Shown: piece by piece, positions 3,278-52,731 of the stretch
How the letters are laid out: each line of letters opens with the position of its first letter
How positions within the stretch are numbered: the stretch's first letter is position 1
Origin: Maribacter aquivivus
GTDB taxonomy: Bacteria > Bacteroidota > Bacteroidia > Flavobacteriales > Flavobacteriaceae
NCBI RefSeq assembly: GCF_900142175.1
Contig: NZ_FQZX01000001.1
Location: 1,984,001-2,048,000, forward strand
DNA: 64,000 nucleotides
Direction of reading: 5' to 3'
Notes under the pieces: generated by a model
What the model was told of the DNA's origin: nothing
Databases searched by the model: none
The model's input: only the letters and a program-made list of their open reading frames with translations
Position numbers and translations under genes: made by a program

Positions 3278-4141
3278 CTATTTCCAAACTCTAAAATATT
3301 TTACGTGATATTCACCATTTAGCTTATTGTTATCCGGTAGGGCACCGAACCATTTGTTAGATTCACAATTAAAATTGACTTCTAAAGGTTGATGCCAATG
3401 TGTGTTCTTCGCCTCTCTAAATAGTATGCCATCTATATAGAAACGGATATATTCCTTGGTCCATTCTAGCCCCCAAACGTGATAATCTTTTTGTAGTTCT
3501 TCTGGGAAAAAATATTTTTTGGTTCTAGAGAAATGCTTTTTAACATCTCCATGTTCTTTTGGAGATTTAAATACATGAATATTTGAATTTAAATCATGGC
3601 GATTGTTTTCTACGCCAGGTGCGTTTTCACAGATATCAATTTCAGTCCACCAATCTTTATCTACGTTTGTCATCCAAAAACCAGAAACCCATGGCGTATC
3701 CATTAATTTAGCTTCAGCTTCAAAATAGCCATATAAAAATTTAGTTTTACTTTTTATAAAGCCTGTTGAATGCGTAAACTCATTAGGTAATTTTTCAGCT
3801 CCGTGTTGGTTTACCTTAATTACTAACTCCCCATTTTTTAGGCTCACATTTGATTCATGAAAATAAGTTGGTGGTCTACCTTTCCATTTTGGATTATTGG
3901 GATACCATCTACTGTAATTCAAATTATTACCCTCAAATTCATCAGAATATTTTTTTATTAGTTTCCAACTTTTAGAATTTTGTTGGTCGGATAGGGGATA
4001 AGCAGAATTTACCCTTTCAATACTATTTTTAAGTTCAATAGAGTCTATATACTTTTTTGGAGGAATAGTCAGGTCTTGGGCAATAATTTTTGATGCTATA
4101 AAGAACAAAACCATAACATGTTGGATTTTTACAAACCTCAT
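3278..4141 (-). CDS. GH16 endo-galactanase (porphyranase/agarase type)
   Basis: This secreted GH16 glycoside hydrolase of 287 residues has a cleavable signal peptide ending at about residue 21 (IIAQ). The catalytic strand reads WTEIDICE: nucleophile Glu167, assisting Asp169 and acid/base Glu172, the E-x-D-x-x-E form of GH16. The catalytic domain fills residues 60-287 with no extra carbohydrate-binding module. The family includes beta-agarases, beta-porphyranases and kappa-carrageenases. The neighbours (GH2, sulfatases, L-galactose and anhydro-L-galactose pathways in the window) favour porphyranase or agarase, but motif reading alone does not separate these. It is the first gene of the operon that continues through GH2 and the edge sulfatase, and it lies behind a terminator at 4303-4335. 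Confidence 0.88.
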   Translation of the reverse strand: MRFVKIQHVMVLFFIASKIIAQDLTIPPKKYIDSIELKNSIERVNSAYPLSDQQNSKSWKLIKKYSDEFEGNNLNYSRWYPNNPKWKGRPPTYFHESNVSLKNGELVIKVNQHGAEKLPNEFTHSTGFIKSKTKFLYGYFEAEAKLMDTPWVSGFWMTNVDKDWWTEIDICENAPGVENNRHDLNSNIHVFKSPKEHGDVKKHFSRTKKYFFPEELQKDYHVWGLEWTKEYIRFYIDGILFREAKNTHWHQPLEVNFNCESNKWFGALPDNNKLNGEYHVKYFRVWK

Positions 4142-11537: not shown

Positions 11538-14500
11538 TTATTCTTCTAATTCTTCATCTGAAATTTCATCGGTATTGTTTAACCTTATGTACTTGCTTGG
11601 TATAACCCCAAACTGTTTTTTGAAACATTTAGAGAAGTAGGAAGCGGTGTTGAAACCCGTCATATACATGATTTCTTTTACCGATAGGTCACTTTTTTCT
11701 AAAAGCTGAACAGCTCGTTTTAATCTAATATTTCTAATAAATTCACTTGATGAAAGGCCAGTCAATTCTTTAATCTTTAAATACAGGTTACTTCTACTCA
11801 TATTCATTTCTTTCACCAACATTTCAACACTAAATTCAGAATTCATCATGTGTTTTTCTACAATTTCAATAGCATTTTGTAAAAACGTTTCATCTGATGA
11901 GGTTACGGTAACCTCATTTGGTTGTAATGTTATTTCGCGATTGAATCTTTTTCGTAGTTCTTCACGGTCTTTTAGGATATTAGCAAGTTTTAATTCTAAC
12001 ATCTCTAAATCAAAGGGTTTTCTAATGTAGGCATCTGCACCTGTTTTTAATCCTTCTATTTCTTTTTCTTGAGATGTTTTTGCAGTTAGCATTACTACAG
12101 GAATATGGCTTGTTTCTTGTGCGTTTTTTAGATTATTACACAGTTCTATACCATCCATTACCGGCATTACCAAATCTGTAATTACAATATTGGGCATGAA
12201 CTTATTTGCTAATTCTAATCCTTTTTTACCATTTTCTGCTTCGTAGATATAATAGCTTTCTCCCAGTCCCTTTTTTATAAAAGATCTAATATCTGGGTTA
12301 TCGTCTACAATTAGTAGTAACGGCAGTTTAGACCTGGACCTTGTCATGTTTTGGTCAATGATATCATCCATAAAGCTGATGGCATGCGAGTCTGCATCAT
12401 CTTTACTTATGAAGGTGTTGGCCTCAAAAACTTCATGAAAGTTGATTTCTTTTTTTTCTTCAAAGGTTTCTTTTTCTTTTGGTAACCAAACATAAAACGT
12501 AGTACCACTTTCAGAATCGCTCTTAACTTTTATAATACCTTGGTGTAGCTCTACCAGATTTTTGGTAAAAGAAAGCCCAATACCTGTACCCTTAGTATTT
12601 ACATGTGTTGTAAGTCCTATTTCAGTATAAAAGCGTTCGAATATGTGCTGTAATCTATGAGCTGGTATACCAGGACCAGAATCTTTTACTTGAATAACAA
12701 TGTACTTAGATTGGTCTACTTTAAGCTCAATATCCTTTGGTTTATTAAAATCATTACCATCAAAAATTTCAAGAAGAATATTACCTTCTTCAGGTGTAAA
12801 CTTAAAGGCGTTTGAAAGTAGGTTGTTACAAATTTTCTCAACGGCATCTGGATCAAACCATGATAGAATTGATTCTTTCGAAGATTTTATTTCGAATTCA
12901 ATATTCTTTTTTCGGCTTAGAAATTGAAAAGGTTCACCTACTTCTTTTAAAAACTCGGCAATATTACTTTTACTTAGATTAAGATTCATTTTACCATGAT
13001 CCATCTTTCTGAAATCTAGTAATTGATTTACTAATCGTAATAGGTAATCGGTGTTTTTTCTCATTAACCCATATTGATCTTTGGTTTCCTTGGGGCTAAT
13101 TTTTTCTCCTTTTTTAATTAAATAGTCTAATGGACCTTTTATAAGTGTTAGCGGGGTTCTAAACTCATGAGATATATTGGTAAAAAACTCAAGTTTTAGA
13201 CGGTGAATTTCTTCGTTCTTATCTTTTTCTAAATTTCTAAGTTCTAATTGGTGCTTCTCAGCAGATCTTATCATAGTAAACCTTCTAAAAGCATATAACA
13301 ATGCTATTGCCAATAGTAAATATGCAAATTTGGCAAGGTTGGTTCGCCACCACGGAGGTGTTACGGTAATTTTAATTTCAACAGGTGTTTCGTCCCAAAT
13401 GTTATCGTTGTTAGAAGCTTTTACTCGCAAGACATAAGAACCTGGCTCAAGATTGGTATAGGTTGCAAACCTATTATCGGCAGATGTGTAAATCCAATCT
13501 TTATCAAATCCATCTAGTTTATAGGCATATTTATTTTTACTTGAGGCTGCATAATGTAATGCTGCAAACTCAAAAGAAAAACTGTTTTCATTATGTTTTA
13601 ATTCAATTTCGTCAATAGAATTTATAGATTTATCAAGTATAATGCGCCCGTTCATTTCAGCACCTATAGCTAAAGGTTTGTTGAAGATGGAAAAGTTGGT
13701 TAAAACTGTTTCCGCTTTTATTTTGTTACTTATAATATCTTCAGGATAGAAAGCGGTAAAGCCGTTGACTCCACCAAAAAGCATTAATCCATCTTTGGTT
13801 TTAAAAGCAGCTAGTTCACTGAATTCATTGCTTTGTAAGCCGTCGTTAACATCGTAATTTTGAAAATTTTCCTGATCAATATCAAACTTTGATAACCCTT
13901 TATTAGTCGATAACCATAGATTGCCCTGATCATCATCTAGAATACCTTTAATTACATTATTAGGTAAACCCTCTTTTTCGCAATAGGTTTTAAAATGTTC
14001 TGGTTTGCCGTCTTTTGCAGGTATAAGTTTATTTAATCCGCCGCCAAAAGTACCTACCCATATATCTCCTGACTGGCTTTCGAAAACTGTTAAAATGTAG
14101 TTGTGACTAATAGTAGTTTCATCGTTAGGTATATTCTTATAATTAACGAATTTGGGATTTTTAGAAGTAATTTGATTATATGGTAATTTAGCTAACCCAT
14201 CACCTGTTGCAAACCAAATATTGTTCTTAGTATCTTGATAAATATCTCTAATAATATTATTGGGTATACCAGTTTCATTAGTAGGGTTATATCTAAAATT
14301 ATTTTTGGTAAAAGTGTCTCCATCCTCATTTATAAGCCAACGCTGTATTCCACCATTGTAGAAGCCTATCCAAACATTACGGTCTTTATCCTGTAAAATT
14401 GAAAATACACTACTAGGTACCTGGGTTATTGGTTTTAAATCATCTTCACCAATTCTTTTATTTGTGTCAAGATCAATTTCAAATAATCCAGGAGAATTTT

Positions 14501-15827
14501 CTCCGCCAGTAAATAATTTGGTGCTAGATTTTAAGTTTATTTCTTCAATGGCAAATACTTTATTTATTTTTGTAAAGTGCTGAAATTGAGTAAAGTCGTT
14601 TTCTTTATCCGTCTTTCCCAGTAAGTTTAAGCCACCACCTTCAGTACCTACCCATAAGTTCCCCTTGCTGTCTTCATGTATGGCTCTGATCTTATCATTA
14701 CTTAAACTGCCTAATTCTAAGTTTTTCTTTATATGTGAAAATTGTTTTCTTTGAGGGTCAAATTTATTGACTCCGCCACCATTAACACCAACCCATATGA
14801 TACCGGTGTGATCAATATATAAAGATTTAACTGCATTTTTGCTTAAGCTATTAGTAGGATTTTCAGGATCATATTTATAAAGCCCTACTAGCTCAGGTAA
14901 TTTTGTTTCGGATAGGTTAGAAAATTCTATAAGACCATCATCGGTGCCTGCCCAAATATGATAGTTATTTATTGAAATGGTGTTAAAGTTGCCACTATAA
15001 ATAAATTGTAATTGATTCTCTGTTTTATTTGAAGCGTATCGATATAAACCATTACTAGTAGCTAAAATTAAATTACCATAAGTATCTTCAATTATTGATT
15101 TCACTTGCGTGTTTGGTAAGTTAATTTGTTCGTTTACTTCTTGAAAATACATGTCTCCATTACTATCTCTAGATAATTTAGAAAGACCAGTTATACCGCC
15201 AATCCAAATTTGGTGCATACTGTCTTCGTAAAAGGTATTTACATTGTTACTATTTCTAGTAGGAGAATCACTATTTTGATATAAGTTATAATGTTCAAAT
15301 TTTAATGAATCTGTTGGCTTTGAAAGATCTGCCATGTCAATGCCTTTGGTGGTGCCCACCCAGAGCCTGTTATCACTATCAATAAATACCAAGGTGATAT
15401 AATCGCTTGATATAGAAAATTCATTGTTGGCATCACTTTTAAATTGCTTGAATTTTTCGGTTTTTTTGTTAAAATAATTTAAACCTCCGCCAGTTGTTCC
15501 AATCCACAGATTTCCTTTTTCATCATCAATTATTTTCCATATTAAGTTACTGCTGATACTATACTGATTTTTAGGATTTGGTTTAAAAAGTGTAAAGTTA
15601 TACCCATCATATCTATTTAATCCATCATGGGTTCCAAACCACATGAACCCATTATCATCTTGAAAAATTGCATTTACATCACTTTGCGATAATCCATTTT
15701 CGGTATTCAAATGCTCAAATTTTAAAGAATTTTGAGCATAACTGGTATGCGCTAATCCAAAGAACAGCATTAAGATTAAATATAGCGAACTCATAGTTGA
15801 GCTCATTTTAAACAGGAGATTGGTCAT
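11538..15827 (-). CDS. Hybrid two-component system sensor/regulator (HTCS)
   Basis: This 1429-residue one-protein two-component regulator is of the kind that controls polysaccharide loci in Bacteroidota. In order it has a signal peptide (to about 31), two seven-bladed propellers of Reg_prop repeats (repeated W-G-T-x-G-G-L-N and W-I-G motifs, about 35-740), a Y_Y_Y domain (about 745-830), one membrane helix (about 835-852) and a histidine kinase with His887 in SHEFRTP plus an ATPase domain with G-T-G-I-G-L. These are followed by a receiver domain (phospho-acceptor Asp1218 in VITDLVMP) and an AraC-type helix-turn-helix (about 1330-1425). The periplasmic propellers would bind a galactan oligosaccharide. 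It sits between the sulfatase operon and the divergent L-sugar operon. It is a candidate for binding the direct repeats described below. Confidence 0.95.
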   Translation of the reverse strand: MTNLLFKMSSTMSSLYLILMLFFGLAHTSYAQNSLKFEHLNTENGLSQSDVNAIFQDDNGFMWFGTHDGLNRYDGYNFTLFKPNPKNQYSISSNLIWKIIDDEKGNLWIGTTGGGLNYFNKKTEKFKQFKSDANNEFSISSDYITLVFIDSDNRLWVGTTKGIDMADLSKPTDSLKFEHYNLYQNSDSPTRNSNNVNTFYEDSMHQIWIGGITGLSKLSRDSNGDMYFQEVNEQINLPNTQVKSIIEDTYGNLILATSNGLYRYASNKTENQLQFIYSGNFNTISINNYHIWAGTDDGLIEFSNLSETKLPELVGLYKYDPENPTNSLSKNAVKSLYIDHTGIIWVGVNGGGVNKFDPQRKQFSHIKKNLELGSLSNDKIRAIHEDSKGNLWVGTEGGGLNLLGKTDKENDFTQFQHFTKINKVFAIEEINLKSSTKLFTGGENSPGLFEIDLDTNKRIGEDDLKPITQVPSSVFSILQDKDRNVWIGFYNGGIQRWLINEDGDTFTKNNFRYNPTNETGIPNNIIRDIYQDTKNNIWFATGDGLAKLPYNQITSKNPKFVNYKNIPNDETTISHNYILTVFESQSGDIWVGTFGGGLNKLIPAKDGKPEHFKTYCEKEGLPNNVIKGILDDDQGNLWLSTNKGLSKFDIDQENFQNYDVNDGLQSNEFSELAAFKTKDGLMLFGGVNGFTAFYPEDIISNKIKAETVLTNFSIFNKPLAIGAEMNGRIILDKSINSIDEIELKHNENSFSFEFAALHYAASSKNKYAYKLDGFDKDWIYTSADNRFATYTNLEPGSYVLRVKASNNDNIWDETPVEIKITVTPPWWRTNLAKFAYLLLAIALLYAFRRFTMIRSAEKHQLELRNLEKDKNEEIHRLKLEFFTNISHEFRTPLTLIKGPLDYLIKKGEKISPKETKDQYGLMRKNTDYLLRLVNQLLDFRKMDHGKMNLNLSKSNIAEFLKEVGEPFQFLSRKKNIEFEIKSSKESILSWFDPDAVEKICNNLLSNAFKFTPEEGNILLEIFDGNDFNKPKDIELKVDQSKYIVIQVKDSGPGIPAHRLQHIFERFYTEIGLTTHVNTKGTGIGLSFTKNLVELHQGIIKVKSDSESGTTFYVWLPKEKETFEEKKEINFHEVFEANTFISKDDADSHAISFMDDIIDQNMTRSRSKLPLLLIVDDNPDIRSFIKKGLGESYYIYEAENGKKGLELANKFMPNIVITDLVMPVMDGIELCNNLKNAQETSHIPVVMLTAKTSQEKEIEGLKTGADAYIRKPFDLEMLELKLANILKDREELRKRFNREITLQPNEVTVTSSDETFLQNAIEIVEKHMMNSEFSVEMLVKEMNMSRSNLYLKIKELTGLSSSEFIRNIRLKRAVQLLEKSDLSVKEIMYMTGFNTASYFSKCFKKQFGVIPSKYIRLNNTDEISDEELEE

Positions 15828-16096: not shown

Positions 16097-17107
16097 ATGA
16101 AATATATAGTTTGTGAAAAACCAGGTGAATTTGTTTTAAAAGAAAAAGAAACACCTGTAAGAAAGAAAGATGAAGCCTTGTTGAGAATTAAAAAGGTAGG
16201 TATCTGTGGTACAGATTTACACGCCTATGGTGGTAATCAAGCATTTTTTACATACCCTAGAATATTAGGTCATGAGTTAGCTTCTGAGGTGGTTGAGATT
16301 GGAGAAAACGATAAAGGAATCAAAGCTGGCGATAAGGTGGTTGTAATGCCTTATATAAGCTGTGGAGAATGTGTTGCATGCAGAAACGGAAAAACAAATT
16401 GTTGTACGAATATTAGAGTTTTAGGTGTGCATACAGATGGTGGAATGCAAGAGTATATTACCGTACCAACAAATATCTTATTGCTTGCCAATAATTTGAC
16501 CGATGATGAAATGGCTATTGTAGAACCATTGGCAATTGGTGCTCATGCCGTTAGAAGAGCCAATATTGTACCTGGCGAAACGGTTGCCGTAGTTGGTTGT
16601 GGTCCAATAGGAATAGGAATTATGAAATTAGCACAGATTGCAGGGGCAAAGGTGATTGCTTTGGATATGAATGAGGAACGTCTGCAATATGCAAAAGATA
16701 AAATTGGGGTAGATTATATTATTAATGTTGGTGAAGATCCAGTAAAACAAATTTCTGAAATTACGAACGGTGATTTATGTACTGCCGTATTTGATGCTTC
16801 TGGCCACAAGGGAGCACTAGAAACATGCCCTTCATACATGTCTCATGGTGGTAGATTTGTATTGGTGGGACTTTCAAAAGGGGAGCTTACCTATACACAC
16901 CCGGCAATACATGCGAAAGAAATGACTTTAATGTGCAGTAGAAATGCTACTACTGAAGATTTTGAACATGTAATTAGCGTGTTAGATCAATTTCCAACAA
17001 CGTCTTTTATAACCCATCAAGTTCCATTTACCGAAATGATAGAAAATTTTGATAGTTGGTTAAAACCAGAGACAGGGGTAATAAAGGCAACAGTTAATTT
17101 TAGTTGA
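16097..17107 (+). CDS. Zn-dependent dehydrogenase, probable L-galactonate 5-dehydrogenase (LgoD-like)
   Basis: This 336-residue medium-chain Zn dehydrogenase has catalytic zinc ligands Cys37 (GICGTD) and His59-Glu60 (GHE). Structural zinc cysteines are at 89, 92, 95 and 103, and the nucleotide fold is VVGCGPIGIG. The family holds sorbitol and threonine dehydrogenases and L-galactonate oxidoreductase (E. coli LgoD, about 340 residues). Its place just before UxaA- and UxaB-like genes points to the LgoD reaction, L-galactonate to D-tagaturonate. It is first in a seven-gene operon; the next ATG follows 4 bp after the stop. The substrate is inferred from the operon, not from residues. Confidence 0.8.
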   Translation: MKYIVCEKPGEFVLKEKETPVRKKDEALLRIKKVGICGTDLHAYGGNQAFFTYPRILGHELASEVVEIGENDKGIKAGDKVVVMPYISCGECVACRNGKTNCCTNIRVLGVHTDGGMQEYITVPTNILLLANNLTDDEMAIVEPLAIGAHAVRRANIVPGETVAVVGCGPIGIGIMKLAQIAGAKVIALDMNEERLQYAKDKIGVDYIINVGEDPVKQISEITNGDLCTAVFDASGHKGALETCPSYMSHGGRFVLVGLSKGELTYTHPAIHAKEMTLMCSRNATTEDFEHVISVLDQFPTTSFITHQVPFTEMIENFDSWLKPETGVIKATVNFS

Positions 17108-17111
17108 TCAA

Positions 17112-18758
17112 ATGCAAAAAAGTTACGTTCAAATAGATTCAAAAGATAATATTATCGTTGCCATCACTAATTTAGAGAAGGGTACAGTTGTTACTATAGC
17201 AGGTAAAGATGTTACTTTAAAAGAGCATATAAAACAGAAACATAAATTTGCCCTTGTCGATTTTAAATCAGGGGATGAAGTATTTATGTATGGCGTTTTA
17301 ATCGGTAAAGCAATGACCAATATAGCTGCTGGTTGTGCTATTACCATAGAAAATGTAAAACATGCTTCTGCAGAATTTAATGAAACTAAAACTGAATTTA
17401 ATTGGCAGGCGCCAGATGTTTCAAAATTTGAGAATAGGACCTTTAATGGTTACCATAGAGATAATGGACAAGTAGGTACTGCCAATTATTGGTTGGTTAT
17501 ACCGCTTACATTTTGTGAAAACAGAAATTTAGATGTAATTGAAGCTGCACTATCAGAAAAATTGGGATACCAAACTTTAAAAGATTTTTCTGTAGATACA
17601 GATGCTTTAATTCAACAGTATAAACTTGGCAGTTCTAGAGATAAAATATTAAATACACCTATACTTACTACCCATGAAGAAATGACAAAGAATAGGGTGT
17701 TTCCAAATGTAGATGGGATTAAGTTTTTAAAGCACGATGGTGGTTGTGGTGGCATTAGGCAAGATTCTGAAACCTTATGCAAACTGTTAGCAGGCTACAT
17801 CGCCAACCCAAATGTAGCTGGTGCAACCATACTGAGTTTAGGTTGCCAAAATGCACAGATTACAATGCTTCAAAATGCGTTGAAAGCGATTAATAGTGAT
17901 AAGCCCGTACATTATTTAGAACAACAACAAAGTCTGAGTGAACGTCACTTTATTGAAGAGGCTGTGAAAGTAACTTTCTTAGGGTTAATCGATGCTAATG
18001 AAATCTTTAGAAAACCGGCACCACTTAGTAAGTTGGTTCTAGGTTTAGAATGTGGCGGGTCAGATGGTTTTTCAGGTATATCTGCTAATCCTGCGTTAGG
18101 GTATGCATCTGATTTATTGGTTGCCTTAGGGGCTAGTCCTGTATTATCAGAATTTCCAGAGTTGAACGGGGTAGAGCAAGAAATTATTAATAGATGTATT
18201 ACAGATGAAGACTCTAAAAAGTTTTATGCCCTAATGCGGGCATATTCCGCTGCTGCAGTTGCAGTGGGCTCGGGTTTTGAAAATAACCCATCTCCTGGTA
18301 ATATTAAGGATGGTCTCATAACAGATGCTATGAAATCTGCAGGTGCGGCTAAAAAAGGAGGTACTTCACCCATAGTAGAGGTTTTAGATTATACAGAACA
18401 GGTGACCAAACCAGGGTTGAATTTATTATGTACGCCTGGTAACGATGTAGAATCAACCACGGGTCTTGTTGGTTCGGGCTGCAATGTGGTTGTTTTTACC
18501 ACTGGTTTAGGTACGCCAACAGGTAACCCTGTAGCTCCCGTTTTAAAAATGTCAAGCAATACAGCTTTATACGAGCGTATGAATGATATTATTGATATAA
18601 ATGCCGGTACAGTTATCAGTGGAGAAGATTCTATAGAAACTATGGGCGAGAAAATATTGGAACATATTATTCAAGTAGCCAGTGGAACACTTGCTTCAAA
18701 AGCGGTGGCACACGGCAATAATGACTTTATTCCTTGGAAAAGAGGAGTATCCTTATAA
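17112..18758 (+). CDS. uxaA: UxaA-family altronate dehydratase
   Basis: This 548-residue sugar-acid dehydratase has an N-terminal SAF domain (about 1-90) and the large UxaA/GarD-type dehydratase domain (about 105-545). The latter shows the conserved HDGGCGG, LGLECGGSDG and GSGCN motifs with metal-ligating cysteines. In E. coli UxaA converts D-altronate to 2-keto-3-deoxy-D-gluconate. It is full length and fused, unlike the split versions of some bacteria. Neighbouring UxaB-like and LgoD-like genes supply the preceding steps. A related alternative is L-fuconate dehydratase in fucose loci; the presence of UxaB argues for altronate. Confidence 0.85.
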   Translation: MQKSYVQIDSKDNIIVAITNLEKGTVVTIAGKDVTLKEHIKQKHKFALVDFKSGDEVFMYGVLIGKAMTNIAAGCAITIENVKHASAEFNETKTEFNWQAPDVSKFENRTFNGYHRDNGQVGTANYWLVIPLTFCENRNLDVIEAALSEKLGYQTLKDFSVDTDALIQQYKLGSSRDKILNTPILTTHEEMTKNRVFPNVDGIKFLKHDGGCGGIRQDSETLCKLLAGYIANPNVAGATILSLGCQNAQITMLQNALKAINSDKPVHYLEQQQSLSERHFIEEAVKVTFLGLIDANEIFRKPAPLSKLVLGLECGGSDGFSGISANPALGYASDLLVALGASPVLSEFPELNGVEQEIINRCITDEDSKKFYALMRAYSAAAVAVGSGFENNPSPGNIKDGLITDAMKSAGAAKKGGTSPIVEVLDYTEQVTKPGLNLLCTPGNDVESTTGLVGSGCNVVVFTTGLGTPTGNPVAPVLKMSSNTALYERMNDIIDINAGTVISGEDSIETMGEKILEHIIQVASGTLASKAVAHGNNDFIPWKRGVSL

Positions 18759-18790
18759 AATTTTTCAATTTTAATATTAGTAGCGGAAGA

Positions 18791-20269
18791 ATGACGATAG
18801 ATCAAAAATCAACAGAACTAAAAATTTTAAACCGAAGAACGGCGAATAAACCAGTACATTACCCTTTACGTGTTATGCAATTTGGAGGGGGGAATTTTTT
18901 GCGGGCATTTTGCGATTGGATGTTCGATGTGCTGAATAAAACAACAGATTTTAATGGTAGTGTGGTTGTCATAAAACCAACCGAGAGAGGCGATTATACT
19001 GAACTTAAAAATCAAGAAGGGTTGTTCCATGTAGCATTAGATGGTATACGGAATGGTAAATTAGTTTCAGAGATTACGTTGGTAGAATCGGTTAGTAAAG
19101 TAATTCAGCCTTACACAGAATGGAATGATTACTTGGCCTTGGCTGAGCAACCTGAAATGAGATTTGTTGTTTCTAACACTACCGAAGCAGGTATTAAGTT
19201 CTCGTCTAGCGATAAGCAAACTGATTGCCCTCCTCACGAATTTCCAGGAAAGTTGACCTTATGGCTATATCACCGTTTTAATTATTTTAAAGGTGCAACT
19301 GATAAAGGTTGTATTGTGCTACCATGTGAATTAATTGAAGATAATGGCGATGCTTTGCAGAAGACGGTTGTACAATATGCTGAACATTGGGATTTAGAAC
19401 CAGAATTTATCACTTGGATTATAAACTGTAATTATTTCTGCAGCACCTTAGTTGATCGTATTGTATCTGGTTTCCCTACCGATAGAAAGGTTGCAATTGA
19501 GCAGCAAACCGGTTACAAAGACGATTTATTAGTAGCTGGTGAGGTCTATCATAGTTGGGTTATTAAAGCACCACCAATTGTTCAGAAAGAGTTGCCTTTT
19601 TCTAAGACTGATTTGAATGTTGTATTTGTTGATGATTTAAAGGATTATCGAGAAATGAAGGTTCGTATTTTAAATGGAGCCCATACATCTTTGGTTCCTG
19701 TAGGTTATTTGGCAGGTATAAGAACAGTTAAGGAAAGTATGGAAGATGATTTGGTTAGCAACCACATTTTGCAAGTACTATCGAAAGAAATTAAACCTAC
19801 CCTAACTAATTTTCCAGAAAAGGATATTGACACTTTTATAAATGCAGTTCTTGATCGATTTAAGAATCCGACCCTCAAACATTTTTTAATATCCATATCA
19901 TTAAATAGCACTTCTAAATTTCAGGCTCGCTTACTACCGGCATTTAAGGAGTACACACAAACTAATGGGCATTTTCCAAAGAGAATAGCATTTTCTTTAG
20001 CCTGTTTAATTCGCTTTTATAAAGGAGAATTTGGCGGCGAAAATATCCCTGTAAATGATGATGCCAGCATATTAGAATTTTTTAAGGATGAATGGGGTCA
20101 GGTAACAGAGCAACATCAAACTTTAGAAGATTTAGTTACAAACGTATTGTCCAATACTGAAATCGTTGGCGAAAATTTAGCTACATATAATGGATTGGTT
20201 CAATTTATTACAAACAGTATCAACAGCATAGATGAAGTAGGGGTAAAAGAATGTTTAAAAGCGCTATAA
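18791..20269 (+). CDS. uxaB: UxaB-like tagaturonate reductase (mannitol dehydrogenase family)
   Basis: This 492-residue member of the polyol-specific long-chain (mannitol) dehydrogenase family is close in length to E. coli UxaB (483). It has the Rossmann start VMQFGGGNFLRAF (about residues 28-40) and the family stretch KVRILNGAHT. UxaB reduces D-tagaturonate to D-altronate with NADH. The start at 18791 is chosen because a purine-rich GGAAGA precedes it and it leaves the protein beginning at the family's usual point. An upstream in-frame ATG at 18734 would overlap uxaA by 25 bases. It sits between the dehydratase and the lactonase in a tight operon, which supports a hexonate route. Confidence 0.83.
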   Translation: MTIDQKSTELKILNRRTANKPVHYPLRVMQFGGGNFLRAFCDWMFDVLNKTTDFNGSVVVIKPTERGDYTELKNQEGLFHVALDGIRNGKLVSEITLVESVSKVIQPYTEWNDYLALAEQPEMRFVVSNTTEAGIKFSSSDKQTDCPPHEFPGKLTLWLYHRFNYFKGATDKGCIVLPCELIEDNGDALQKTVVQYAEHWDLEPEFITWIINCNYFCSTLVDRIVSGFPTDRKVAIEQQTGYKDDLLVAGEVYHSWVIKAPPIVQKELPFSKTDLNVVFVDDLKDYREMKVRILNGAHTSLVPVGYLAGIRTVKESMEDDLVSNHILQVLSKEIKPTLTNFPEKDIDTFINAVLDRFKNPTLKHFLISISLNSTSKFQARLLPAFKEYTQTNGHFPKRIAFSLACLIRFYKGEFGGENIPVNDDASILEFFKDEWGQVTEQHQTLEDLVTNVLSNTEIVGENLATYNGLVQFITNSINSIDEVGVKECLKAL

Positions 20270-20277
20270 ATAAGCAT

Positions 20278-21105
20278 ATGAAAATAGATTCTCATCAACA
20301 TTTTTGGAAATATGAACCGGTAAAGCATAGCTGGATAGATGATGAAATGGCGGTTATCAGAAAAGATTTTATGCCGGTTGATCTAAAGCAAGTATACCTT
20401 GAAAATGATATTGATGGGTGCATTGCTGTACAAGCAGATCAAACAACTGCAGAAACTGACTTTTTAATTGAATTGGCTTCAGAGAATAGTTTTGTAAAAG
20501 GAATTGTAGGTTGGGTAGATTTTAGAGGTAATGATATTGATGAGGTTTTGGAACATTACAGTAAATTCAAAATTGTTAAAGGTTTTAGACATGTAGTACA
20601 AGGCGAAGCCGATCACAATTTTTTATTACGTCCAGATTTTCTGACAGGTATTTCAAAATTAGCACCCTACAATTTTACCTATGATATTTTGGTGTTTCCG
20701 CATCAACTAGGAGCAGTTCTAGAACTTATAAAAAAATTCCCAAACCAAAAATTTGTAATAGATCACATAGCCAAACCTTATATAAAAGATGGTTTTTATA
20801 ACGGTTGGGCTGTCTTAATGAATGAAATTGGCAAGCAAAAAAATGTGTATTGCAAGTTATCAGGGATGATTACCGAAGCCGATTATAAAAAATGGAACGT
20901 TGAGCAAATAACACCTTATATGACCTTGGTTTTAAAAGCATTTGGTGCAGATAGAATAATGTTCGGTTCTGATTGGCCAGTATGTTTAGTGGCCGGAAAT
21001 TACAAAACCGTAAAAAAATTAGTTACAGATTTCATTTCGCAACTCAATAGCGAAGAGCAGGCTAAAATAATGGGTTTGAATGCAATGAAATTTTATAATT
21101 TATAA
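20278..21105 (+). CDS. Amidohydrolase-superfamily sugar lactonase (COG3618)
   Basis: This 275-residue metal-dependent amidohydrolase of the COG3618 group begins MKIDSHQHFW with the H-x-H metal pair (His6, His8). The conserved GSDWP near the C-terminus (FGSDWPVC) carries the catalytic Asp. Characterised members open L-fucono-, L-rhamnono- and L-galactono-lactones. Here it would hydrolyse the lactone made by the next gene's dehydrogenase. The start at 20278 is preferred over an in-frame ATG at 20251 inside uxaB, because the protein then starts directly at the first beta strand. It lies 8 bp after uxaB and 10 bp before the SDR gene. Confidence 0.85.
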   Translation: MKIDSHQHFWKYEPVKHSWIDDEMAVIRKDFMPVDLKQVYLENDIDGCIAVQADQTTAETDFLIELASENSFVKGIVGWVDFRGNDIDEVLEHYSKFKIVKGFRHVVQGEADHNFLLRPDFLTGISKLAPYNFTYDILVFPHQLGAVLELIKKFPNQKFVIDHIAKPYIKDGFYNGWAVLMNEIGKQKNVYCKLSGMITEADYKKWNVEQITPYMTLVLKAFGADRIMFGSDWPVCLVAGNYKTVKKLVTDFISQLNSEEQAKIMGLNAMKFYNL

Positions 21106-21115
21106 TAGGAACAAT

Positions 21116-21907
21116 ATGGATTTAAAATTAAAAGATAAAGTAGTTGTCGTTACAGGTGCTGCGGGATTAAAAGGAAGTATTGGTGAAACTATAGTTCAAC
21201 ATTTGGCAGCTGAAGGCGCTATACCGGTCATTGTTTGTAGAAATGATAGAGGGTTTGGTTATGAGAAAGAATTACAGGACAAAGGTATTGACGCTTTGTT
21301 CGTAAAAACAGATTTATCAGACCATGTACAAATAGAAAAGGCTGTGCGTGAAATTGAAGAGAAGTATGGTGAAATACATGCCTTAATAAATAATGTGGGT
21401 GTTAACGATGGTGCAGGTTTAGATGCTTCTTTAGACGATTTTATGTATTCGTTAAAACTGAATATGGTCAGTTATTTTGCCATGGCCAAGTATTGCTTGC
21501 CAATGCTCAAAAAAACTAGGGGAAATATTTTAAATATAGGCTCTAAAGTAGCACTAACAGGGCAAGGCGGTACTTCTGGTTATGCAGCTTCAAAAGGTGG
21601 GGTATTTGGTCTAACAAGAGAATGGGCGGTAGATTTAATAAAGTTTGGCATCCGCTCCAATGCCATTGTTATTGCCGAAAGTTGGACACCTGCATACGAT
21701 GCTTGGATTAAAACTTTAGACAACGGAGAAGAAAAACTTGAGGCTATCGTTAAAAAAATTCCTTTAGAAAATAGAATGACAATGCCTGCAGAAATAGCGG
21801 ACCAATGTTTATTTACTATTTCAGAAAAATCATCTCATACAACTGGTCAGTTTATTACTGTAGACGGCGGTTATGTTCATTTAGATAGGTCATTATTGAC
21901 TGAATAA
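21116..21907 (+). CDS. SDR-family sugar dehydrogenase (probable L-galactose/L-fucose 1-dehydrogenase)
   Basis: This 263-residue short-chain dehydrogenase has the cofactor motif TGAAGLKGSIG (about 14-24), NNVG, catalytic Ser and the Y-x-x-x-K of YAASK, and it ends with a typical VDGG loop. In L-fucose loci of other bacteria (for example Campylobacter) an SDR next to fucP, a COG3618 lactonase and a mutarotase oxidises the pyranose at C1. L-galactose and L-fucose differ only at C6, so the same chemistry fits L-galactose here. An alternative is a later 2-keto-3-deoxy-acid dehydrogenase. It is in an operon, with 60 bp to the permease gene. Confidence 0.78.
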   Translation: MDLKLKDKVVVVTGAAGLKGSIGETIVQHLAAEGAIPVIVCRNDRGFGYEKELQDKGIDALFVKTDLSDHVQIEKAVREIEEKYGEIHALINNVGVNDGAGLDASLDDFMYSLKLNMVSYFAMAKYCLPMLKKTRGNILNIGSKVALTGQGGTSGYAASKGGVFGLTREWAVDLIKFGIRSNAIVIAESWTPAYDAWIKTLDNGEEKLEAIVKKIPLENRMTMPAEIADQCLFTISEKSSHTTGQFITVDGGYVHLDRSLLTE

Positions 21908-21967
21908 TACTAGACTATTAATACAAAAAAACTCTAATTATAATCCAATTAGCTTTTTATTTTAACC

Positions 21968-23308
21968 ATGAAAGTAATTCAATTAAATATGAATCAACCA
22001 AAAAAAATACCTGTAGTAAGTAAAGAGTTATTGATACCTTTTATCATTATAACATCACTTTTTGCTTTATGGGGCTTTGCTAATGATGTCACTAACCCTA
22101 TGGTGACAGCATTTAAAAAGGTAATGCCAGAATTAAGTTGGACGCAAGCATATTTAGTACAATTTGCATTTTATTTCGGATATGGTTGTATGGCTATTCC
22201 TGCAGCATTGTTTATTAAAAAATATACCTACAAGAAAGGTATCATTCTAGGATTGTCACTTTATGCCCTTGGAGCATTTTTGTTTTATCCGGCATCTGCT
22301 TACGAAGAGTATTCATATTTTTTAATCTCATTATATGTCATTACATGTGGTTTAGCCTTATTAGAAACAACATCAAACCCTTTGATTTTATCTCTGGGAG
22401 CTAAGGAAACTGCTACACAGCGGTTAAATTTGGCGCAATCTTTTAATCCAATAGGGTCTATTTCAGGAATGATGATAGCTCAATTTGTAGTTTTAAGTCA
22501 GATAAAATCAGCGACCTATAATGATGAGACATATGCAGCTTTAGACGTAGCAAGTAAAGCCGCAATTAAAACAGAAGATTTAAATATAATTAGCTACCCC
22601 TATTTAGGTATTGGGGTTATTGTTTTGGTTATTTTAATATTAATTGTGTTTACTAAAATTCCCACTGTTCAAGAACATACGAGTTTAAGCTTCAAAGAAT
22701 CCGTAAGCAAAATATTTTCTAAAAAAACTTTTTTGCCAGGGGTTATTGCTCAAATGTTCTACGTAGGAGCACAAATTATGTGTTGGACGGCCATTTTTCA
22801 ATATGTACAGTATTTAAATGAGTCTACAAATAGTGACATAAACGCCACCTATATGAATATGATCGCTATGGGTATTTTTCTTGGCGGTCGTTTCTTAGGT
22901 ACCGCTTTATTAAGTGTTTTTTCAGCGCCAAAATTACTTTATATTTTTGCAGCATGTGCCGTATTATGTTGTGCAGGGGCTATCATTATACCTGGAATGC
23001 CCGGGTTAATTTCTTTAGTATCTATTTCTTTATTTATGTCAATTATGTTCCCTACAATTTATGGTATAGCCTTAAAAGATATGGGAGATGAAGCAAAGGT
23101 AGGATCTGCTTTTTTAGTAATGGCAATTGTTGGCGGAGCTATTTTTCCTTTAATGCAAGGTGCTATAATTGACATAGGCGGAGATAATTTAGCAGATACC
23201 TTGATTTTAGGAGTTCCTGAAGTTAAGTTTTCTTTTATTATGCCAATGATATGTATAGCAGTAGTTGGCTTGTATGGCTTATATGCCGCTAAACTAGAAA
23301 ATGCTTAA
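21968..23308 (+). CDS. fucP: FucP-like sugar/H+ symporter (MFS)
   Basis: This major-facilitator permease of 446 residues has about 12 hydrophobic helices. The N-terminal FALWGFANDVTNP motif is characteristic of the FucP/GluP branch, which carries L-fucose, L-galactose, D-arabinose or glucose/galactose with protons. A start at 21989 (MNQPKK) is also possible. Its operon partners handle an L-galacto-configured sugar, so inner-membrane import of L-galactose is inferred. L-fucose cannot be excluded from the sequence. Confidence 0.88.
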   Translation: MKVIQLNMNQPKKIPVVSKELLIPFIIITSLFALWGFANDVTNPMVTAFKKVMPELSWTQAYLVQFAFYFGYGCMAIPAALFIKKYTYKKGIILGLSLYALGAFLFYPASAYEEYSYFLISLYVITCGLALLETTSNPLILSLGAKETATQRLNLAQSFNPIGSISGMMIAQFVVLSQIKSATYNDETYAALDVASKAAIKTEDLNIISYPYLGIGVIVLVILILIVFTKIPTVQEHTSLSFKESVSKIFSKKTFLPGVIAQMFYVGAQIMCWTAIFQYVQYLNESTNSDINATYMNMIAMGIFLGGRFLGTALLSVFSAPKLLYIFAACAVLCCAGAIIIPGMPGLISLVSISLFMSIMFPTIYGIALKDMGDEAKVGSAFLVMAIVGGAIFPLMQGAIIDIGGDNLADTLILGVPEVKFSFIMPMICIAVVGLYGLYAAKLENA

Positions 23309-23328
23309 CTATTTAAAAAATTAGAATC

Positions 23329-23667
23329 ATGACAAAAAGATATTGTTACGCCTGTGATTTAAAAGACGACTCTAAATTAATTGCTGAATATAAAGCATAT
23401 CATGCAGAGGGAAAAGCATGGCCAGAAATCACAAAGAGTATTAAGGATGCGGGTATAGTAGATATGCAAATCTATTTAACAGGAAATAGAATGTTCATGA
23501 TTATGGAAGTTGATCAAACGTTTGATTCAGCCAAAAAAGCTGAAATGGATGCTAATAACCCCAAAGTACAAGAATGGGAGAATCTGATGTGGAACTATCA
23601 ACAGGAGCTACCTTGGGCTAAAGATGGTGAGAAGTGGATTGAATTAGACCAGATATTTCAATTATAA
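23329..23667 (+). CDS. RhaM-family L-sugar mutarotase
   Basis: This 112-residue protein of the L-rhamnose mutarotase family (dimeric alpha/beta barrel) has the early R-Y-C-Y-A-C-D-L-K-D start, the Y-H-A-E-G region and the C-terminal W-x-x-L-M-W-N-Y-Q segment. It interconverts anomers of an L-sugar so that the C1 dehydrogenase has its preferred form. A homologous gene occurs in fucose loci of other bacteria. It is last in the operon, 20 bp after the permease, with a terminator right behind it. Confidence 0.88.
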   Translation: MTKRYCYACDLKDDSKLIAEYKAYHAEGKAWPEITKSIKDAGIVDMQIYLTGNRMFMIMEVDQTFDSAKKAEMDANNPKVQEWENLMWNYQQELPWAKDGEKWIELDQIFQL

Positions 23668-23685
23668 CCTAGTAAAAGTAATAGA

Positions 23686-23725
23686 AACACAGAAGCCAGA
23701 TCTTTAAATCTGGCTTCTGTGTTTT
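23686..23725 (+). terminator. Intrinsic terminator of the L-galactose operon
   Basis: A perfect 16-bp stem, AACACAGAAGCCAGAT with its complement, has a 6-nt loop and a short T tract. It starts 19 bp after the mutarotase stop. Its core CAGAAGCCAGATCT is reused in the terminator at 36456. It may act in both directions, as the GH2 gene converges from the right. Confidence 0.85.
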
Positions 23726-31907: not shown

Positions 31908-31925
31908 TAACTAATTAAGAAAAAA

Positions 31926-38616: not shown

Positions 38617-39708
38617 TTACTGTTGATAAGGGGCTAATTTCTTCCAATCGAATACTACTCCTGTTCCTGGCTCATCAGAAGCTACAGCTCTGCAATTTTC
38701 AACAACTAAAGGTCTTGTAGTATACTGATCAATGGGGAAACTGTGTACTTCTAACCATCCAGAATTAGGTTGGGCAGAAACTAAACTAACATGTAATTCT
38801 TGCATACCGTGAGAGCAAGCAGGTATACCGTGCTTGTCTGCTAAACGGGCAGCTTTAAGCCAACCGGTTACACCACCACAGTTAGAGGCATCTGGTTGTA
38901 TAAAGGATAGTTTAGCTTGGTCAAAAGCATATTCAAATTCATGAATGGTATGTAAATTTTCTCCCATAGCTAAAGGGAATCCTGTTTTTTCTACTATTTC
39001 AGCAAAGCCTTTATAATCATCTGGTATTATGGGTTCTTCAAACCAAGTGATGTCATATTTTTTAAATCCTTCAATTGCTTTAATTGCTTTTTCTATGGAC
39101 ATAGAATAATTGGCATCTACCATAAAGGTTACATCTGGGCCAATAAATTCCCTAACCGCTTTAATACGTTCTAAATCTTCTTCTAAATTTTCTCTTCCTA
39201 TTTTGATTTTCACGGCATTGAATCCGTTATCTAAATAGGTTTTCATATTGTTTAAAAGCTTTTCTATAGGGAATTGTAAATCTATACCGCCACAATATGC
39301 TTTACAGGTATTGCCCTCACCACCTGCCATTTTCCATAAAGGTTGTCCGGCTTTTTTGCATTTTATATCCCATAAGGCAATATCGATGGTTGATATCGCA
39401 AATGATGCTATACCACCACGACCTACATAATGTATATGCCACTCCATAAAATCGTAAATACCATCTATATCTGTACCGTCTTTACCCACCAGAACGTTGG
39501 CAAAATCATGATCAATCATGGCTTTTATTGAAAAACCTCCTTTTCCGCCTGTATAAGTATACCCGGTACCTTCACTACCGTCTTCTAAAGTTATGGTAGT
39601 GGTTACTAATTCGAAATGTGTGTGATCTCCATGTTTTGCATCGTTCATTACTTCAGGTAAAGGGACTTTAAAAAGTTTGGCGATTACGCTCTTAATTTTT
39701 GTACTCAT
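38617..39708 (-). CDS. 3,6-anhydro-L-galactonate cycloisomerase (enolase superfamily)
   Basis: This 363-residue member of the mandelate-racemase/enolase superfamily has barrel residues Lys167 and Lys169 (VKIKIG), metal ligands Asp198 (VDANYS), Glu224 (WFEEP) and Glu250 (GENLH), and His300 (CSHGMQE). In agar-degrading bacteria such an enzyme opens 3,6-anhydro-L-galactonate to 2-keto-3-deoxy-L-galactonate. The assignment rests on the adjacent aldehyde dehydrogenase and GH117. A galactonate-type dehydratase is the alternative. It is in the middle of the operon, 42 bp after the dehydrogenase. Confidence 0.85.
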
Positions 39709-39750
39709 CTTAATTAAATAAAAGGTGCTATTAATTACACTTATTACTAC

Positions 39751-41205
39751 TTATGCTTTATGTCTAATATAAAAGGTTTTCTTTTCCATGTATTGTTCAA
39801 AACCATACTTGCCATCTTCACCACCAGAACCAGATAATTTGTAACCATTATGGAAACCTTGATGTTGTTCTCCATGACCACGGTTTACATATATTTCGCC
39901 GTATTCCAATTCATCATTACATTTCATGATGGTGTTCATGTCATTGGTAAAAACCATAGCGGCTAATCCATATTCACAGTCATTTGCATAGCCAATTACT
40001 TCATCAAAAGTTTTAAATTTTAAAACGGGTAAAATTGGACCAAAAGATTCTTCATGAACAATAGTCATATCTTGGGTTACATTGGTTAAAACAGTAGGTT
40101 CAAACCAAAATCCTTTTTCAAATTCAGCACCTGTAGGTCTTTTTCCTCCGGTAGCAACAGTTGCTCCTTCTTCAATACTGACAGCTACTAAATGCTCCAT
40201 ATGCTTTAATTCTGATGCATTTACTTTGGGACCCATATCCGTATCTTCTAGCATTGGATCCCCAACTTTTAATGCCTTGGTTTTAGCAATGAATTTTTCC
40301 ATAAACGTATCATAAATACCTTCGTGTAAATACATTCTTTCGTTACAGGTACATACCTGACCACAATTGTCAAAACGAGAATGCAAGGCGGCATCTACTG
40401 CGGCATCAATATCTGCATCTTCAAATACAATAAATGGGGCTTTACCACCTAATTCTAATTGAACGTGTGTTAGGTTTTGAGCTGCATTTCTTGCTATTTG
40501 CTGACCAACAGGTGTAGAACCTGTCATAGTCACCATTTTGCAAATAGGACTTTCAACTAATGCATTACCCATTGCTCTACCCGGACCAGTTAAAATATTG
40601 ATTACCCCTGCAGGAATACCTACTTTGTTTGCTAAATTTCCAAGTTCTAAAGTTGCCAAGGGTGTTTCAGAAGTAGGCTTAATTACAATAGAATTACCTG
40701 CAACTAGTGCCGGTCCTAATTTACGACCCGCCAACGCCAACGGAAAATTCCATGCTGTAATGGCAACAACGACACCACGAGGAACTTTTTGAATCCAAAT
40801 TTGTTCGTTCGGATTGTCTGAAGGAATAATATCCCCCTCTATTCTACGTGCACCTTCACAAGCATACCTAATGAATGATGCAGTAACAGCAACTTCAAAA
40901 CGAGCAACCTTTAAAAGTTTACCTTGTTCTTTGGTCAATAATTCAGCTAAATATTCTGTATTTGCATCAATCTCATCGGCTAACTTATATAATAAATCTG
41001 CTCTGGTTCTGGCAGGTAGTTTTTTCCATTCTTTTTGAGCTTTATCGGCAAACTTTAATGTTTCTATGGCTTCTTCGGCAGTACCGTTTTGTACACGTGC
41101 TACAATTTCTCCATTAGAAGGACTAATAATATCAATTGTTTCACCTGAAGTTGATGTTCTCCATTCTCCGTTTATAAAAAGCTTGTATTCCTTAATTGAT
41201 GACAT
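39751..41205 (-). CDS. 3,6-anhydro-L-galactose dehydrogenase (aldehyde dehydrogenase family)
   Basis: This 484-residue NAD(P)-dependent aldehyde dehydrogenase has general base Glu251 (QLELGGKAP) and catalytic Cys285 in NCGQVC. The family's usual length is about 480. Placed directly before the cycloisomerase and near GH117, it should oxidise the free aldehyde of 3,6-anhydro-L-galactose to the acid, the first committed step of that sugar's catabolism. Lactaldehyde dehydrogenase (AldA) is the closest other reading. It is in the operon between a sulfatase and the cycloisomerase. Confidence 0.87.
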   Translation of the reverse strand: MSSIKEYKLFINGEWRTSTSGETIDIISPSNGEIVARVQNGTAEEAIETLKFADKAQKEWKKLPARTRADLLYKLADEIDANTEYLAELLTKEQGKLLKVARFEVAVTASFIRYACEGARRIEGDIIPSDNPNEQIWIQKVPRGVVVAITAWNFPLALAGRKLGPALVAGNSIVIKPTSETPLATLELGNLANKVGIPAGVINILTGPGRAMGNALVESPICKMVTMTGSTPVGQQIARNAAQNLTHVQLELGGKAPFIVFEDADIDAAVDAALHSRFDNCGQVCTCNERMYLHEGIYDTFMEKFIAKTKALKVGDPMLEDTDMGPKVNASELKHMEHLVAVSIEEGATVATGGKRPTGAEFEKGFWFEPTVLTNVTQDMTIVHEESFGPILPVLKFKTFDEVIGYANDCEYGLAAMVFTNDMNTIMKCNDELEYGEIYVNRGHGEQHQGFHNGYKLSGSGGEDGKYGFEQYMEKKTFYIRHKA

Positions 41206-51134: not shown

Positions 51135-51156
51135 TTTTTTCTTTTTTGTACTGATT

Positions 51157-52709: not shown

Positions 52710-52731
52710 ATTAACTATATTAGTGTTTTTA

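Follow-up and report, generated by a model that had tools for sequence, protein, structure and literature searches.

A putative L-galactose catabolic operon beside porphyran-related genes in Maribacter aquivivus

Introduction

Phocaeicola (Bacteroides) vulgatus reportedly converts L-galactose through its lactone and L-galactonate to D-tagaturonate (as Hobbs is said to have described in 2014), the same steps as are proposed here. A route from L-galactose to KDG is already known from Luteolibacter sp. LG18, where the lguABCDEF genes constitute an L-glucose/L-galactose pathway and knockouts led to growth defects on L-galactose (PMC12632266, consulted in part). The D-galactose units of porphyran alternate with L-galactose-6-sulfate or anhydro-L-galactose (PMC10033563, consulted in part). 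The literature searches made, with sources consulted partially, found the release of L-galactose described, but not its later fate in marine bacteria.

Here we describe a seven-gene operon in a 64,000-nucleotide stretch of the M. aquivivus genome (contig NZ_FQZX01000001.1, positions 1,984,001 to 2,048,000), referred to as the window. Judged from its sequence, the operon very probably serves the catabolism of L-galactose in a bacterium that degrades porphyran and agar.

Results

Organization of the operon and the proposed pathway

The preliminary description had reported seven co-directional, tightly packed genes. An ORF check of the window found all seven open on the + strand between 16097 and 23667, at unchanged positions, and profile matches supplied their families:

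16097..17107, + strand: MDR Zn-dehydrogenase (ADH_N, ADH_zinc_N), predicted L-galactonate 5-dehydrogenase (L-galactonate to D-tagaturonate)
17112..18758, + strand: UxaA-type dehydratase (SAF and GD_AH domains; PF20629, 321 bits), predicted D-altronate dehydratase (to KDG)
18791..20269, + strand: UxaB, tagaturonate reductase (D-tagaturonate to D-altronate; NF002969, 641 bits, cut-off 359)
20281..21105 (alternative start ATG 20251), + strand: COG3618 amidohydrolase (Amidohydro_2), predicted L-galactono-1,5-lactonase
21116..21907, + strand: SDR aldose 1-dehydrogenase (YAASK motif), predicted for L-galactose, of a family that oxidises L-fucose as well
21968..23308, + strand: FucP-type sugar/H+ symporter (TIGR00885, 487 bits, cut-off 280.4), predicted L-galactose importer
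23329..23667, + strand: RhaM-type mutarotase (PF05336, 108 bits, cut-off 23.4), predicted for L-galactose

The intergenic gaps are 4, 32, 11, 10, 60 and 20 bases, with UxaB starting at ATG 18791 and the lactonase at ATG 20281; the in-frame upstream alternatives (TTG 18734 and ATG 20251) would overlap the previous gene. The comparison of gene order called for earlier was carried out on the loci of relatives. The same order was found again in other Flavobacteriaceae, and this recurrence places it beyond chance. Two features flank the operon:

11538..15827, - strand: hybrid two-component regulator (HTCS), divergent from the operon and a candidate for its regulator, named by reading the sequence
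23684..23725, no strand assigned: 18-pair hairpin between convergent genes, directly 3' of the operon (-28.9 kcal/mol, z -7.6)

HTCS homologues adjoin the operon in several relatives. The hairpin, for which the terminator scan gave a terminator-like match on the - strand only, is a probable bidirectional terminator between the convergent genes. A sigma-70 promoter scan (38 sites vs 36 expected) was uninformative.

In the proposed pathway, in which every substrate and every reaction is a prediction, a GH29 exo-alpha-L-galactosidase encoded ~51 kb upstream would free L-galactose from desulfated porphyran oligosaccharides, FucP would import the sugar, and RhaM would interconvert its anomers. The SDR would then oxidise C1 to yield L-galactono-1,5-lactone, the ring of which would be opened by the COG3618 enzyme to give L-galactonate. 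Oxidation at C5 by the MDR would produce D-tagaturonate, and UxaB would reduce C5 with inversion to D-altronate, so that this oxidation-reduction would carry an acid of the L series over to the hexuronate route of the D series. The UxaA-type enzyme would dehydrate D-altronate to KDG, from which a KDG kinase and a KDPG aldolase with genes at a distant site (C1, ~180-183 kb) would form pyruvate and glyceraldehyde-3-phosphate. The operon had been credited with every step from extracellular L-galactose to KDG; this goes too far, as release by GH29 and outer-membrane uptake lie outside the seven genes. KdgK and Eda, needed after KDG, are also encoded outside the operon.

Family assignments of the seven proteins

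The MDR is 43% identical to E. coli LgoD and 33% to RspB, its best NCBIfam model being NF007489 (218 of 376 bits). It carries GICGTD, GHE and CGECVACRNGKTNCC, which we take to be Zn motifs. The only NCBIfam match of the UxaA-type protein was galactarate dehydratase (281.8 of 730.85 bits). As regards the earlier assignment to UxaA, the protein is very distant from E. coli UxaA in sequence comparison and its family is also present in FAH (fucose-type) operons; its role therefore rests on context and on the tree, not on the name. The lactonase reached 256.8 bits with the L-fuconolactonase model NF052480, under the cut-off of 400; its nearest PDB sequence is 4dlf, and it contains the motifs HQHFW, DHIAKP and GSDWP. 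The RhaM-type protein reached only 23.4 of 99.6 bits with the NCBIfam L-rhamnose mutarotase model. Deducing the substrate from enzyme names alone was abandoned: the curated names indicate L-fucose, and UxaA family members accompany either sugar.

The SDR scores above the cut-off of the curated L-fucose dehydrogenase model NF052481 (359.8 bits, cut-off 300), and its characterised relatives prefer L-fucose. Because of this score, dual use has to be considered: FucP, the mutarotase, the SDR and the lactonase would handle both L-galactose and L-fucose (perhaps D-arabinose too), only L-galactonate would pass through MDR, UxaB and UxaA, and L-fuconate would exit otherwise or be a dead end. This explanation, which overlaps with the best one, we regard as possible, though tentatively. 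The three further GH29 genes of the genome, beyond the L-galactosidase-like one, are in keeping with it. Against it, the two L-fucose exits searched for were not recovered from the genome: there were no PF02952 matches (L-fucose isomerase FucI), and the best match to the FAH 2,4-diketo-acid hydrolase, which the operon also lacks, reached 114.5 bits (cut-off 500, on a scale where the FAH of locus L028 itself reaches 339.5 bits, likewise below the cut-off). The UxaA-type gene, moreover, is the sole PF20629 match of the genome.

Predicted genes for red-algal galactans and for the hexuronate route

The following genes within the window point to the use of porphyran and agar:

3278..4141, - strand: GH16 of porphyranase type (best PDB match 8EP4, 357 bits, E 8.2e-106)
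38617..41205, - strand: predicted 3,6-anhydro-L-galactonate cycloisomerase and 3,6-anhydro-L-galactose dehydrogenase (enolase-superfamily and aldehyde-dehydrogenase matches)
50019..53886, - strand: alcohol dehydrogenase, ferredoxin reductase and P450 (PF00107, PF07992, PF00067)

The structure 8EP4 is that of the 6-O-methyl-beta-porphyranase BpGH16C (PMC12316285, consulted in part). The genes at 38617..41205 are predicted by analogy to encode agar route enzymes, and relatives 91-98% identical to them adjoin the operon in three Cellulophaga loci. The set at 50019..53886 is predicted to be of the 6-O-methyl-D-galactose demethylation type, by analogy with the system in PMC10033563 (consulted in part); P450 relatives (72-74%) were found in all four Zobellia loci. 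The four GH29 genes of the genome all lie outside the window. The one at C1:1947798 is, among the structures compared, nearest in sequence to the known exo-alpha-L-galactosidases 7SNK, 7LJJ and 7LNP (418-424 bits vs 295 for 4NI3), which makes this its putative activity. In the search for an exo-L-galactose-6-sulfatase, three of the four sulfatases of the window were compared and none was closest to 7LHA; six more, outside this comparison, are encoded directly upstream of the window.

At E <= 1e-60 the genome has no UxaB match besides this one, and the lactonase and the SDR are present in one copy each of their kind. The single KDPG aldolase (Eda) is encoded at C1:182391 (NF005499, 378.6 bits, cut-off 275). 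The KDG-kinase-like gene at C1:180054 stays under the cut-off of both kinase models (486 of 700 and 208 of 440 bits); among the 20 kinase genes found in relatives, 15 are 86-95% identical to it. UxaC is located at C1:1902586. A further explanation is that UxaA and UxaB serve mainly as a D-galacturonate back end, lying next to the sugar genes by chance and with L-galactose as a minor substrate. The single copies of both genes and the UxaC elsewhere are compatible with this, as is the presence of UxaC beside UxaB-UxaA pairs in 17 of 20 other fetched loci (a selection, namely the UxaB places with an adjoining UxaA). However, UxaC is ~96 kb from the operon, the other five operon genes are without known role in galacturonate use, and an MDR 84-86% identical to that of the window is found in eight Flavobacterium-type loci without UxaA or UxaB in the fetched stretch. 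Together with the absence of UxaC from operon-type loci reported below, this makes the explanation very improbable.

Distribution of the two back ends among related loci

Gene content and conservation were compared across 129 loci with front-end genes (80 of 108 relatives kept; 48 of 49 SDR places fetched, the 49th being the window's own). UxaB was present in 54 loci, the FAH hydrolase of the L-fucose diketo route in 31, and neither in the other 44; not a single locus carried both, and this exclusion was the same at all identity thresholds between 40 and 25%. The uronate isomerase UxaC was found in none of the 129 loci, and thus in none of the 54 with UxaB, so that tagaturonate must there come from another source, presumably the MDR. 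This, with the exclusion of UxaB and FAH, bears out the earlier argument that MDR and UxaB make sense together only for a hexonate with a 6-hydroxyl. The exclusion, taken with the results for fucose isomerase and FAH in the genome, also upholds the preference given to L-galactose, which is supported as fitting the operon better than L-fucose.

In a strict count (operon's strand, within 7.5 kb, at least 40% identity), KdgK was recorded in 15, Eda in 18 and GH29 in 16 of the 54 UxaB loci, and none of them in the 31 FAH or the 44 other loci. When whole loci were recounted, KDG kinase or KDPG aldolase occurred in up to 18/54 UxaB, 0/31 FAH and up to 3/44 other loci; the notion that KdgK, Eda and GH29 are exclusive to UxaB loci was thus discarded, being true in the strict count only. 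Operon variants in relatives have KdgK, Eda or GH29 added, and in eight loci an aldo-keto reductase replaces the SDR, the two never occurring together.

Several observations, besides the SDR score and the sulfatase comparison above, count against the L-galactose reading. Of 50 named UxaB loci, only 19 had red-algal galactan markers within ~10 kb (at identity thresholds of 50-60%, chosen by us). The MDR is present in 10 of the 31 FAH loci, at 68% identity in three and 46-54% in seven (a value of 23% for L020, apparently from a second, short alignment, was left out). Six FAH operons carry an SDR of the window's clade (81-83% identical in three of them), from which it follows that the SDR-type front end also pairs with a fucose-type back end; the combination of MDR, FAH and such an SDR in six operons speaks for dual use. 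C. jejuni, whose fucose locus has comparable components, did not grow better on L-galactose (PMC6946681, consulted in part).

Phylogeny of the dehydratase and the SDR

In the UxaA tree (proteins of at least 450 aa, with 6 of 15 'other' rows taken into the tree that placed the window protein), the protein fell into a group of 60 rows (support 94) containing UxaB- and UxaC-linked copies and none from FAH operons, a placement in favour of altronate as the substrate. In the SDR tree (proteins of 230-300 aa), the window's clade and the main fucose-operon clade are split by a branch of 1.57 (support 100), and 25 of the 31 FAH-operon SDRs belong to the clade opposite the window's. As a substrate test on its own the SDR tree was dropped, given the six FAH operons inside the window's clade. 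Signature columns separate both clades, with no tie to C6 recognition established.

These trees bear on the possibility of an L-fucose operon, in which the UxaA-type enzyme would dehydrate L-fuconate, the role it presumably has in FAH operons, and the MDR and UxaB would be accessory or act on galacturonate. FAH operons do also combine UxaA-type, FucP, SDR, lactonase and mutarotase genes. The dehydratase of the C. jejuni fucose locus presumably belongs to the UxaA family, and its hydrolase to the COG3618 family. Alongside this dehydratase and hydrolase, the locus encodes FucP, FucX and a mutarotase (PMC6946681, consulted in part). Nevertheless, the mutual exclusion of UxaB and FAH, the grouping of the window's UxaA-type protein with UxaB- and UxaC-linked copies, and the red-algal surroundings all argue against this possibility, as do KdgK and Eda, which would be useless for a 6-deoxy acid and are missing from all 31 FAH loci. 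We consider an L-fucose operon very improbable.

Discussion

The preliminary description had singled out the whole route as one operon in a galactan locus. A whole-route cluster has already been published for LG18 (PMC12632266, consulted in part). As far as literature searches show, three things are new: a fucose-type front end is united with a back end of hexuronate type, this arrangement is spread among Flavobacteriaceae, and it is situated next to genes for porphyran.

On balance we favour, with some reserve, a joint model for Bacteroidia in which a front end common to L-fucose and L-galactose use (FucP, mutarotase, COG3618 lactonase, and either an SDR or an aldo-keto reductase) would be linked to one of two back ends that exclude each other. 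The FAH branch would receive 6-deoxy acids. Acids with a 6-hydroxyl would enter a UxaB-UxaA branch (in some loci with KdgK and Eda), borrowed from galacturonate catabolism and joined by the C5 dehydrogenase. The UxaB branch would be a so far undescribed fate of porphyran L-galactose in marine Flavobacteriaceae, and the sugar used by an operon would be evident from whether it carries UxaB or FAH. If this is true, the operon supplies the missing step after L-galactose release in marine bacteria, and back-end exchange switches one front end between two sugars. UxaB beside a fucose-type front end would then be a marker by which 'L-fuconolactonase' and 'L-fucose dehydrogenase' genes of marine flavobacteria are reassigned.

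The non-phosphorylating L-fucose pathways (the C. jejuni fuc locus and the FAH-type operons of Bacteroidia) have FucP, a mutarotase, an SDR and a lactonase-type hydrolase in common with the window, and many of them a UxaA-type dehydratase. They continue, however, to KDF dehydrogenase and the FAH hydrolase, and UxaB is absent from the 31 FAH loci; the C. jejuni model has a DapA-type enzyme in place of the FAH hydrolase (PMC6946681, consulted in part). The LG18 cluster resembles the operon predicted here in uniting a C1 dehydrogenase, an L-galactonate C5 dehydrogenase, a tagaturonate reductase and an altronate dehydratase. It also includes a KDPG aldolase, which in M. aquivivus is encoded outside the operon, while its genes, as listed in the part of the source consulted, comprise no lactonase, FucP or mutarotase, all three of which are predicted in the window. 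Its LguA depends on NADP and does not act on L-fucose; the N-terminus of LguA by our reading resembles an aldo-keto reductase, in contrast to the SDR of the window. LG18 belongs to the Verrucomicrobiota, and the consulted part of the source does not place its cluster within an algal galactan locus (all from PMC12632266). The three reactions of E. coli LgoD, UxaB and UxaA are identical to those proposed here, but their genes lie at three separate sites with entry at L-galactonate, whereas in the window their predicted counterparts form one operon.

Organization and setting of the operon

The seven genes had been described as co-directional and tightly packed, and they indeed lie on one strand, 4–60 bases apart, with families assigned by profile. 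They are located in a Maribacter-like flavobacterium with a genome of 4.58 Mb (window at C1:1984001-2048000), and the closest named lactonase match, among the matches listed, is that of Maribacter spongiicola (91–92%). A perfect 18-pair hairpin is present at the operon end, between the operon and a convergent GH2 gene. The features are:

16097-23667, + strand: MDR Zn-dehydrogenase (LgoD-like), UxaA-type dehydratase, UxaB, COG3618 lactonase, SDR, FucP, RhaM-type mutarotase, in this order
upstream of the operon, - strand: GH2, GH16, sulfatases
upstream, - strand: hybrid two-component regulator (HTCS), putative, from sequence reading
downstream: GH2, second GH16
28878-33665, downstream: SusC/D, putative, from sequence reading
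downstream: predicted anhydrogalactose genes, galactokinase, uridylyltransferase
42644-44443: KduD-type SDR and second MDR, adjoining the predicted anhydrogalactose genes
50019-53886, downstream: P450, ferredoxin reductase, alcohol dehydrogenase

These surroundings (GH2, GH16, sulfatases, SusC/D, anhydrogalactose and P450 genes) therefore identify the setting as an agar/porphyran locus, in agreement with the preliminary description. The set at 50019-53886 resembles the known 6-O-methyl-galactose demethylation set. The KduD-type SDR and second MDR probably carry out C5 oxidation and reduction of 2-keto-3-deoxy-L-galactonate, so that both L-sugars of agar/porphyran would reach KDG via C5 inversion.

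Comparison with related loci

A total of 129 loci was compared: 80 named loci (the best 80 of 108 lactonase relatives, a set biased towards the window's type), 48 found with an L-fucose dehydrogenase model, which was positive in 47 of 396 genomes of the same class (49 places), and the window. The proposed comparison of gene order with other flavobacteria revealed the same order, MDR-(KdgK-Eda)-UxaA-UxaB-(GH29)-lactonase-SDR-FucP-mutarotase, with parts absent or beyond the fetched stretch in some loci. In eight loci an aldo-keto reductase occupies the SDR position, and none of the eight carries an SDR.

UxaB was found in 54 of the 129 loci (including the best 80 of 108) and FAH, the hydrolase of the L-fucose diketo route, in 31; none had both and 44 had neither. 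These counts, made on whole loci, were constant from 40 to 25% identity (Fisher p 2e-9, relatedness ignored). The UxaB loci comprise 50 named loci (from the best 80 of 108), three of the class sample and the window, and the FAH loci three named (from the same 80) and 28 of the class sample. UxaC was found in none of the 129 loci (including the best 80 of 108), so the operon UxaB is not there for an adjoining uronate isomerase. Identity of UxaB to that of the window is bimodal (46–49% in 29 loci, 57–100% in 25), which may reflect repeated recruitment or replacement of this gene.

Partner genes in the 129 loci (including the best 80 of 108). Strict: operon's strand, ≤7.5 kb, ≥40% identity; loose: whole loci, either strand, ≥25% identity.
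Gene, count: UxaB loci; FAH loci; others
KdgK, strict: 15/54; 0/31; 0/44
Eda, strict: 18/54; 0/31; 0/44
GH29, strict: 16/54; 0/31; 0/44
KdgK, loose: 18/54; 0/31; 3/44
Eda, loose: 18/54; 0/31; 3/44
GH29, loose: 29/54; 2/31; 4/44

Given the exceptions in the loose count, the enrichment of these partners in UxaB loci is strong, but not absolute. By established chemistry, phosphorylation at C6 is not open to a 6-deoxy acid, so the presence of KdgK and Eda in an operon points to a 6-OH hexonate.

Two further arrangements were observed. Eleven loci (L049, L059, L062, L064, L067, L069, L072, L074, L082, L083, L090 (Arenibacter)) contain MDR-UxaA-lactonase without nearby UxaB, SDR or FucP, and in nine of them a WecA-like glycosyltransferase gene follows shortly after. 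In L061, L070 (Aestuariibaculum) and L028 (Confluentibacter), KDF dehydrogenase and FAH take the place of UxaB, next to an SDR, a lactonase and an MDR of the window's kind; these are possible two-sugar operons.

Genes shared with the own genome's galactan genes and located within ~10 kb of a locus were used as markers of a red-algal link. Among the named loci (best 80 of 108), they accompany 19/50 UxaB loci, 0/27 others and 0/3 FAH loci, and in the class sample 1/3 UxaB (a GH2), 0/28 FAH and 0/17 others. The markers observed are GH29 (66–77% to the own L-galactosidase-like GH29), P450 in Zobellia and Ulvibacterium, anhydrogalactose genes in Cellulophaga, porphyranase-like GH16 and GH2. The red-algal association of UxaB loci is thus real, yet by no means general. 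In eight Flavobacterium-type loci, MDR-lactonase-SDR occurs without UxaA/UxaB in the fetched stretch; these loci presumably serve other L-galactose sources.

Phylogeny of the operon proteins

The SDR tree is split in two (branch length 1.57, support 100), with one row, L121, left over and weakly placed. The first clade has 38 rows (25 FAH-type, 13 other, no UxaB-type), and the second, including the window, 58 (40 UxaB-type, 12 other, six FAH-type). MDR is present in all six FAH-type loci of the latter, and genomes G095 and G386 each have one SDR of each clade. In 31/38 SDRs of the first, fucose-operon clade, including L117 and L120, the Lys of YxxxK is replaced by Asn, and 31/38 have Arg three residues beyond this position; the Lys is retained in 58/58 of the window's clade.

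In the UxaA-type tree (94 rows), the window's protein falls within a 60-row group (support 94, just below the tool's star) of 52 UxaB-operon, five other, two UxaC-linked and one further UxaB-linked copies, with none from an FAH context. The 15 remaining UxaC-linked copies intermix elsewhere with fucose-type copies, so at least two partner switches have occurred in the family. The UxaA of E. coli is a very remote relative of the window's protein. With LgoD of E. coli the operon MDR shares 43% identity, and with RspB 33%; MDR occurs in 10/31 FAH loci, three at 68% and seven at 46–54% identity.

Related functions in the own genome

All four GH29 genes of the genome lie at C1 1.931–1.954 Mb, outside the window. 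For one of them (C1:1947798-1949345), located ~51 kb before the operon on the upstream side, the matches to the exo-alpha-L-galactosidases 7SNK, 7LJJ and 7LNP score 418–424 bits, the best other entry being 4NI3 (295 bits). Upstream of the window lies another extensive polysaccharide region (G000:C1:1931000-1982000, loci L102-L105), which holds the four GH29 genes, six or more sulfatases and a golvesin-domain GH2.

The genome has one PF20629 (UxaA) gene, one UxaB, and one lactonase and one SDR of operon type. Genes for uronate isomerase and KDPG aldolase are also present, the latter near a KDG-kinase-like gene whose model matches score below cut-offs. As UxaA and UxaB of the operon are the sole copies, they are probably also used for galacturonate. 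A profile search of the genome found no fucose isomerase, and its best FAH-family match reached 114.5 bits (cut-off 500); the FAH of L028, for comparison, scores 339.5.

Comparison with known pathways

The UxaB/FAH exclusivity, the KdgK/Eda partners and the trees together uphold the original interpretation: predicted L-galactose catabolism is the best reading of the operon, and we consider it probable. No published description of the operon in marine flavobacteria was found in a search of open-licence PMC papers. In the available portions of three papers, Zobellia genes induced by agar and porphyran (PMC5613140) and galacturonate and anhydrogalactose routes (PMC5385347, PMC5943477) are described, and no L-galactose route is named. 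For the SDRs from C. jejuni and B. multivorans, the sections available of PMC6946681 report a preference for L-fucose and weak activity on L-galactose; they also report that L-galactose gave no growth increase in C. jejuni. For lguABCDEF of Luteolibacter LG18, the accessible text of PMC12632266 reports kinetics and knockouts with growth defects on L-galactose, and cites the Phocaeicola vulgatus work as Hobbs 2014. The operon, with its predicted reactions, is a variation on a known pathway and not a new one.
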